Assembly (NCBI GenBank): GCA_951804985.1
Contig: OX638135.1
Location: 37,657,024-37,721,023, forward strand
Reading direction: 5' to 3'
Source of the DNA: Dryomyza anilis
Lineage: Eukaryota > Arthropoda > Insecta > Diptera > Dryomyzidae
DNA length: 64,000 nt
Both the position numbers and the translations under genes were made by a program. Shown here in pieces: positions 10,239-11,000 of this stretch (position 1 is its first letter; the number at the start of each line of letters is the position of its first letter). The notes beneath the pieces were generated by a model. That model was not told the DNA's origin, made no database searches, and saw only the letters and a list, made by a program, of their open reading frames with translations.

Positions 10239-11000
10239 ATGGCACCCAACAACTCTAGCGCAGTGAAAAAGAACGCCAGTGGCAAGCGTGGCGACTCTCG
10301 AGCCAGCTGGAAGAATGCCCGGCAAGGCAGACAGGAGCGGCGGAAACAAGCACCGCACCAACAACAACACCATCAAGCGCAAGAGTAACAAGACCCATAC
10401 CCGACCCAACTCCTCCAATCATCGTGTCGCTCCAACAGGACGACACTCGAGACCCTCGAAAGTCCCTCACCATGTGGCTTGTGGAATTTGCCGTCAGGAC
10501 CATAGGCTGGCGAAGTGCTTTAGGTTCCGCGAGAAGAACCTGGATGAGAAGTACGAAGTAGTGATGAGTTATCACTACTGCGTGAATTGCACCTTGCACG
10601 CGTGCTTATAAATCGCACGAGGCATGTGACGATTATTGCGCAGGAGCTGGTCAGCCAGCTACATCTGAGGACGACTAAGGTGGACGACAAGACAGTCTGC
10701 AAGGTGGTAGTGGGGTCCCGCTTTGATGAAACATTCAAGTGCGAGATCAATGCACTAGTCTCCAAAGATCTACCTCGCAAGCCATACCCAGACGACGTCA
10801 ATGAAGCTGTCCTGAGCCGATTTGAACACATGTTCCTCGCGGGCCAGAAGTGCTGTTCATCGGCGCTGCTAGTGTTGCAGTTGGGTGCGGATGTATACCC
10901 AAGGATATTGAAGACGGGTGTTTACGCAAGCGACGGTGGCTTGGCAGTGGCTCAGAGTACTGCGTTCGGCTGGACGCTGTCTGGTCCATGTGGACTCTGA
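10239..11000 (+). pseudogene. BEL-A2 ORF3: second knuckle/protease-like protein
   Basis: An ATG in a good context (ttaccATGG) opens MAPNNSSAVKKNASGKRGDS, a strongly basic start. After a frameshift near 10388 comes VACGICRQDHRLAKC (CCHC knuckle) and YCVNC (start of a second knuckle). A deletion at about 10600 then removes the third knuckle. ARVLINRTRHVTIIAQELVS occupies the place of ALIDSGS in the true protease, with the catalytic DSG replaced. It ends with LGADVYPRI, GLAVAQSTAFGWTLSGP and a stop at 10998-11000. It lies downstream of integrase, separate from pol. Its role is unknown; nucleic-acid binding is inferred from the knuckles. Confidence 0.75.

Follow-up and report, generated by a model that had tools for sequence, protein, structure and literature searches.

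BEL/Pao retrotransposons (Belpaoviridae) are described in the profile of the International Committee on Taxonomy of Viruses as carrying gag, pol, and env only, and their replication is called poorly understood (PMC8742986). In the available part of the survey by De la Chaux and Wagner, env is present in few BEL/Pao elements, and an extra gene of nucleocapsid-protease type is not named (PMC3118150). Here, a 64,000-nucleotide (nt) stretch of the genome of the fly Dryomyza anilis (contig OX638135.1, positions 37,657,024 to 37,721,023; hereafter, the window) was analyzed, in which three BEL/Pao families (A, B, and C) harbor remnants of a separate gene (open reading frame 3, ORF3) downstream of integrase and DUF5641. 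Sequence comparisons support the view that ORF3 is an old duplicate of the BEL/Pao nucleocapsid-protease (NC-PR) section, with one origin, in which the zinc motifs have been kept and the protease active site has been lost.

Several described systems resemble ORF3 in part. Like the env-like third gene of BEL/Pao elements (PMC8742986), ORF3 follows pol and may be expressed from a spliced message; unlike env, its product is an NC-PR duplicate without envelope features by a crude hydropathy measure alone, a 19-residue hydropathy above 1.6 being found in 1 of 49 aligned proteins from other flies (maximum, 1.67). An envelope protein was ruled out by this low, if crudely measured, hydropathy together with the homology to NC-PR. 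The nearest functional parallel is p22/p18 of Ty1, a shortened Gag-type product of a separate RNA, in which, according to the available account, an RNA-chaperone function is involved (PMC4599808); inhibition by ORF3 would be hypothetical. In that account, p22 is identical to the C-terminal half of Gag and is made from an internally started RNA, whereas ORF3 has diverged into a paralogue that is encoded by its own gene and contains zinc motifs and a dead protease (PMC4599808). Identity to the element's own Gag is not seen here, since the ORF3 protease piece of the family A copy A2 and ORF3 of the inverted family B copy (B-) share 29% and 26% identity, respectively, with the element A polyprotein. 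The ORF3s of bdelloid rotifer long terminal repeat (LTR) elements are likewise diverse accessory genes, typically expressed from spliced messages; the types given in the accessible text are esterases/lipases, exonucleases, and envelope or membrane proteins, not NC-PR duplicates (PMC5408684). Achilles, a BEL/Pao element of Bactrocera oleae, has superfamily and host family in common with ORF3-type genes described below, and its Gag carries two CCHC motifs and one CCHHH motif; in the portion of the report at hand, the clone from this olive fly is without its 3' end (PMC4580426). In the retroviral tether domain, an RNase H is inactive yet kept beside a new active one, a likeness to ORF3; as far as the excerpt available goes, that domain lies within Pol, whereas ORF3 is a separate gene and its dead enzyme a protease (PMC12440569).

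No description of a duplicated NC-PR gene with a dead protease was found in the titles and opening lines of abstracts of the open-licence PMC literature, a scope that does not extend to Repbase notes. In the literature consulted, accessory genes of LTR retrotransposons are envelope-like or captured enzymes, while ORF3 seems to be made from the element's own replication machinery. Judged from its sequence, ORF3 is a real accessory gene, old and under constraint, that adds a new variety to a known element class, and for which a plausible mechanism can be proposed.

In each family, the gene comprises three zinc motifs, then a retropepsin-like segment, and a stop right behind FGWxLSG. The final residues are FGWTLSGPCGL in A2, FGWILSGPCRL in B, and FGWTLSGSCSH in C, each followed directly by the stop codon; the stop thus lies a few residues after FGWxLSG, as the preliminary description had stated. 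The same loci were found when fly proteins not taken from the window served as tblastn queries, namely P0005 (E values of 1e-69 for the plus-strand copy of B, B+, 1e-43 for B-, and 2e-41 for A2) and P0014 (4e-12 for C). These E values and the standalone relatives in other flies indicate that ORF3 is more than a chance pattern. The relevant features of the window are as follows:

10239..11000, plus strand: ORF3 remnant of A2, from MAPNNSS to FGWTLSGPCGL and stop; tblastn E values of 1.7e-41 (P0005) and 3.9e-37 (P0014); the active-site column is N
39404..40397, plus strand: ORF3 remnant of B+, from MTPNTNF to FGWILSGPCRL and stop; tblastn E value of 1.1e-69 (P0005)
41866..42512, minus strand: ORF3 of B-, open from ATG to RALINPT, beyond which an (AT)n run is met, together with a Tc1-like remnant
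51354..51912, minus strand: ORF3 remnant of C, from MSNSNNN to FGWTLSGSCSH and stop; tblastn E values of 4.5e-12 (P0014) and 4.0e-11 (P0017)
6076..7128, plus strand: gag end, zinc motifs, and protease (DSGSE, flap-like segment) of the A2 polyprotein, the parent-type module, which matches PF13650 (4.1e-06) and PF13975 (2.6e-06) and is related to ORF3 by hhalign and by fold
46665..47105, minus strand: zinc motifs and protease start of the B- polyprotein
1..2365, plus strand: A1, a copy of 6927-9291 without ORF3

The four copies of ORF3 have decayed in different ways. In A2, the frame changes twice, and a stretch of approximately 80 residues is missing that starts at the second zinc motif and extends almost to the former active site. 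B+ likewise changes frame twice and contains two in-frame stops. The frame of B- stays open up to and including RALINPT, after which the (AT)n run and the Tc1-like remnant follow, and C, on the minus strand, is interrupted several times. The position of an ATG-initiated frame behind pol in three families, as claimed in the preliminary description, was confirmed by motifs and tblastn, but no copy is intact. The retropepsin-like segment that it reported is homologous to the protease, but the catalytic Asp is absent: LINRT in A2 and LINPT in both B copies stand against LIDSGSE in the element A polyprotein, and in C the active-site column is deleted or unassignable. The LGADVY-type segment, claimed for all three families, does not hold for C, which reads LILAAMVQ at that place. 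A1 is identical to its counterpart at 2356 of 2365 bases (99.6%) and ends inside integrase, before ORF3. Placement behind a DUF5641-like pol end, as expected of a BEL/Pao element gene, was observed in the three window families and in one Lucilia gene model; the LTR-like repeat downstream of ORF3 was compared for A2 only. Since Peptidase_A17, DUF5641, and zinc motifs of the ORF3 type stand together in the Lucilia model, the gene order is not special to the window.

The zinc motifs are the best-kept part of the protein. ORF3 contains the BEL/Pao nucleocapsid motif set (two CCHC and one CCHHH), of which 11 of 13 zinc columns are kept in 49/49 aligned relatives and all columns in 46-49 of the 49; the amino end ahead of these motifs, which lies outside the profile alignment, has a net positive charge in 45/49. 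In contrast, the catalytic Asp of the D-S/T-G motif is found in 0/50 ORF3 rows versus 17/17 polyprotein rows, and the corresponding ORF3 column holds eight different residues. A 13-residue segment (GLN region) is missing in 50/50 ORF3 rows, whereas a longer segment is present in 13/13 polyproteins; its place suggests that the missing piece is the flap. An active protease was ruled out by the loss of both the catalytic Asp and this flap-like segment, because of which the protease half of ORF3 should not cut. The second Asp of the protease part is kept in 49/49 relatives, and the retropepsin beta fold is predicted for ORF3, with confidence in the case of P0010, an ORF3 protein of Bactrocera oleae; the structure model of the polyprotein was weak (mean pLDDT, 55.0). 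In a Foldseek search of a viral library, aspartic proteases from phages and from other viruses made up most of the top matches, and no belpaovirid was named among the best 50 rows.

ORF3 and the polyprotein are homologous over a stretch that begins with the first zinc motif and includes the protease, with hhalign E values of 1.4e-33 for the tephritid-type ORF3 set and 3e-34 for the mainly muscid set. In tblastn searches, P0010 and P0005 matched the element A polyprotein at ~27% identity (E ~1e-24), and among the window copies, identity to it is 29% for the A2 protease piece (90 columns; E 2e-06) and 26% for B- (144 columns; E 3e-13). A phylogenetic tree of NC-PR (272 columns, after removal of O_winB_N, O_P0023, and polyproteins P0067 and P0074) separates 49 ORF3 from 15 polyprotein rows with an ultrafast bootstrap (UFBoot) support of 100, a split that holds without the catalytic block. 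The same split (49 versus 12 rows; support, 100) was obtained for the protease part (153 columns), from which the gappy P0066, P0070, and P0071 were also dropped. The single old ORF3 clade anticipated in the preliminary description is thus seen in NC-PR and in the protease part, while the zinc part alone neither shows nor rejects it. When eight named tephritid ORF3 proteins were forced onto four tephritid-type polyproteins in a quick tree, the fit was 142 log units worse (approximately unbiased test, p-AU 3.2e-5), so that, for tephritids, nesting of ORF3 with the gag/protease of its own element, which the preliminary description had named as evidence against its claim, is rejected. The element A polyprotein groups with Bactrocera polyproteins. 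P0016 and P0017, from Musca and Stomoxys, branch with the tephritid-type ORF3 set (support, 94), apart from other muscids; on the basis of this placement, two ORF3 lineages may predate the divergence of these fly families, or transfer may have taken place between them.

Relatives of ORF3 occur as standalone proteins in other flies. A first search with the open part of B- ORF3 found 10 proteins of 309-359 amino acids (aa), the named ones being from Anastrepha, Bactrocera, and Zeugodacus, and a profile built from nine of these gave 60 matches at E <= 1e-3. These comprise 11 proteins from Tephritidae, 24 from Muscidae, 2 from Calliphoridae, 22 without taxon label, and 1 JGI polyprotein piece; the genera are Bactrocera, Zeugodacus, Anastrepha, Ceratitis, and Rhagoletis (Tephritidae), Musca, Stomoxys, and Haematobia (Muscidae), and Lucilia and Calliphora (Calliphoridae). 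Alignment A3 contains 49 of the 60, after exclusion of fragments and odd models (P0012, P0018, P0019, P0023, P0028, P0050, P0054, P0060, P0061, and P0062) and of the polyprotein piece P0059; its members are 262-365 aa long in 48/49 cases and 497 aa in one. With these relatives and the hhalign homology to NC-PR, the earlier proposal of a second, shortened nucleocapsid/protease-type protein encoded by a separate gene is upheld. No Pfam family was matched by more than one of the 49 members at E <= 0.1, scans of viral contigs with three profile alignments (named A2, A4, and A5) found no relative, and a PDB sequence search gave just three weak matches (best E, 0.35). As a separate observation, the excluded proteins P0060 and P0062 have a similar end, EAIKSLA-VLC.

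The pattern of substitutions between families A and B indicates that ORF3 is under purifying selection, in line with the maintained function proposed earlier. In the protease-like part of A2 and B+, the proportion of synonymous differences (pS) is 0.773 and that of nonsynonymous differences (pN) is 0.295 (125 codons; Fisher, 3e-15), and in the zinc part of A2 and B-, pS is 0.783 and pN is 0.319 (38 codons; Fisher, 9e-5). For integrase in A2 and B+, pN is 0.122, which is lower than in ORF3; ORF3 is therefore constrained but faster changing. Codon comparisons of RT, RNase H, and the polyprotein zinc part, being misframed, short, or poorly aligned, were excluded. Because synonymous sites are saturated between A and B, no reliable ratio of nonsynonymous to synonymous rates (dN/dS) is obtained for this pair. 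B+ and B- differ at 5 positions over 69 codons, with a dN/dS of 1.14 and no sign of constraint; such neutral-looking changes are as expected after insertion.

Just ahead of the ORF3 start codon, a pyrimidine-rich tract ending in YAG is located in all three families, at the positions listed here together with the ends of pol:

10212..10233, plus strand: splice-acceptor-like CAG behind a pyrimidine tract, 5 nt upstream of the A2 ORF3 ATG, in the top 1% of window AGs by a simple score
39377..39398, plus strand: splice-acceptor-like CAG behind a pyrimidine tract, 5 nt upstream of the B+ ORF3 ATG, in the top 0.03% of AGs
42518..42539, minus strand: pyrimidine tract and splice-acceptor-like CAG before the B- ORF3 ATG, not independent of the plus copy
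51919..51945, minus strand: splice-acceptor-like TAG with a pyrimidine-rich stretch, 6 nt upstream of the C ORF3 ATG, in the top 2% of AGs
9980..10172, plus strand: DUF5641-like pol end of A2, frames broken, with the stop at 10170, 69 nt upstream of the ORF3 ATG; 9928-10073 has a DNA match (6e-05) to the DUF5641 stretch of C
39138..39340, plus strand: DUF5641-like pol end of B+, frames broken, with the stop at 39338, 66 nt upstream of the ORF3 ATG, within 1062 nt that are 72.8% identical in DNA to A2
51982..52167, minus strand: DUF5641 pol end of C (PF18701, 4.4e-14), with the stop codon beginning at 51984, 72 nt upstream of the ORF3 ATG

By this score, which uses consensus weights, 23 of the 2253 ATGs in the window (these sites included) have an AG within 10 nt whose score equals or exceeds that of the weakest of the three. 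In a blastn comparison of A and B across the ORF3 region, matches were left just at the acceptor/ATG stretch (36 bp, 89%) and in the last 67 bp (84%). Splicing, as in env-bearing elements, is probably the simplest reading of ORF3 expression.

The explanation favored here, with moderate confidence, is that ORF3 is an old, selected, and probably splice-expressed RNA-binding pseudoprotease, an NC-PR duplicate after pol whose dead protease may serve as a dimerization or docking module. The NC-PR section of a BEL/Pao polyprotein would have been duplicated long ago, put behind pol, and retained as a gene of its own, to be read from a spliced subgenomic RNA in the manner of env. Its nucleocapsid half, with three zinc motifs and a mostly basic amino end, would have been retained for RNA binding, and its protease half, with a predicted retropepsin fold devoid of the Asp and flap, would be used for dimerization or docking. 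While bound to element RNA, ORF3 might then form dimers of its own or associate with the Gag-Pol protease, and could act in trans on particle assembly or maturation.

Several observations weigh against this explanation. All four copies in the window are broken, none being an open gene, and the genome position of relatives outside the window is known from one gene model alone. In a tree of the zinc part (68 aa), 10 of 11 polyprotein rows form one clade (support, 100), but P0059 lies elsewhere and there is no clean split; a constraint holding the 53 ORF3-type rows together was not rejected (p-AU 0.41). Comparisons of C with A or B point to weak constraint (pN 0.54 and 0.56; pS 0.71 and 0.78; Fisher, 0.018 and 0.005), perhaps due to the decay of C. 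No Drosophila ORF3 was named among the 60 matches of a search that reaches just relatives sharing short exact words, whereas 8 of 17 matches of a polyprotein search in the same database were Drosophila proteins; the gene therefore does not look essential to BEL elements. P0062 (Calliphora) and P0060 keep the zinc motifs with no protease half seen, although they may be cut-off models, and a protease-docking role therefore need not be general. With respect to expression, the distance from the pol stop to the ORF3 ATG is a multiple of three in all three families, so reinitiation or readthrough might instead give rise to ORF3, most of all in B, which has one intervening stop. No strong splice donor was found in the C leader, and A and B are without leaders in the window.

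Two roles for such a pseudoprotease are close in likelihood. ORF3 may be a positive RNA factor, that is, a second nucleocapsid carrying, protecting, or packaging element RNA, with the dead protease as a mere dimer scaffold, a possibility that falls short of even confidence: the zinc columns are best kept, the amino end is mostly basic, and P0060 and P0062 retain the zinc part alone, but RNA binding is putative, and both the confident fold prediction for the P0010 protease and the second Asp in 49/49 relatives need a reason of their own. Alternatively, ORF3 could exert a trans-dominant self-restraint, as an inert partner of the Gag-Pol protease that delays or blocks particle maturation and limits copy number, by a logic similar to that of Ty1 p22; this role is regarded as doubtful. 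Retropepsins act as dimers, to which each chain contributes one Asp and one flap. The fold is kept in ORF3 while Asp and flap, the very parts that a dimer partner would contribute, are absent in 50/50 rows, and Ty1 p22 provides a precedent for an element-encoded inhibitor made from an alternative RNA, according to the available account (PMC4599808). Against self-restraint, the drift of the catalytic column to eight residues means that no exact inert chemistry was selected, the protease half is absent in P0060 and P0062, and a self-inhibitor kept for long would require selection at the level of host or lineage; the heterodimer of ORF3 with the protease is itself a proposal. In its most specific form, ORF3 would be a dedicated protease antagonist, made from a spliced RNA and binding element RNA, whose inert dimers with the Gag-Pol protease time or limit maturation; this version is put forward tentatively and is rather unlikely.

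The remaining explanations deny that ORF3 is a lasting element gene. That the relatives are host-domesticated gag-protease genes, the window copies being captured or chance neighbors, would agree with their annotation as ordinary genes in fly genomes; it is made improbable by the identical placement after DUF5641, at near-equal spacing, in three window families, by the Lucilia model that joins DUF5641 to ORF3-type zinc motifs, and by clusters with many member sequences (29, 18, 16, and 11), which may count one locus repeatedly across records. Recent independent duplications, in which each element copied a piece of its own gag/protease that is now decaying as junk, would fit the broken state of the window copies and the neutral look of B+ versus B-, but a single clade with support of 100, a 13-residue gap in common, relatives across fly families, and the poor fit of own-element nesting (among tephritid rows only) speak against them. 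This last explanation is very improbable and is largely refuted by the trees, barring long-branch effects.

As an RNA-binding pseudoprotease, ORF3 would combine one half that is tightly kept with another that has turned into a pseudoenzyme, the whole being held across fly families. As a concrete and testable candidate, it could account for self-regulation or for the handling of RNA in BEL/Pao elements, and it bears on the annotation of dozens of fly genes now labelled 'uncharacterized protein'.

Other features of the window include, at ~11153 and 40522, the sequence TTTTGCAGA(C/T)ACTGCAAGGC, which is common to A and B and located just before the start of the 3' LTR-like repeat; the short inverted repeat TTGCAG...CTGCAA at these sites is kept between the diverged elements. 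The LTR-like repeats of A2 (4842-5466 and 11175-11702) consist of pieces matching at 95-100%, partly inverted; the near-identity of A1 and A2 beside such piecewise matches may stem from a recent duplication, from gene conversion, or from the assembly. The element B copies (36198-46567) form a long inverted repeat, with longest arms of 2426 nt that are 99% complementary, and between them lies the Tc1-like transposase remnant (40808-41612, minus strand), with DDE_3 and HTH_Tnp_Tc3_2 matches that are both under the Pfam cut-offs. Elsewhere, a Ty3/gypsy-type element containing pieces of RVP, RNase H, and integrase (18109-21301, plus strand) and a long interspersed nuclear element with endonuclease and reverse transcriptase in one 765-aa frame (30826-33123, minus strand) were observed. 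An ATG-started open frame of 879 aa (15032-17671, minus strand) has no Pfam match at E 1e-3, and three copies of a repeat unit, spaced by 2.5 and 3.1 kb, occupy 57679-63907, with 300-nt stretches that are 68-100% alike.
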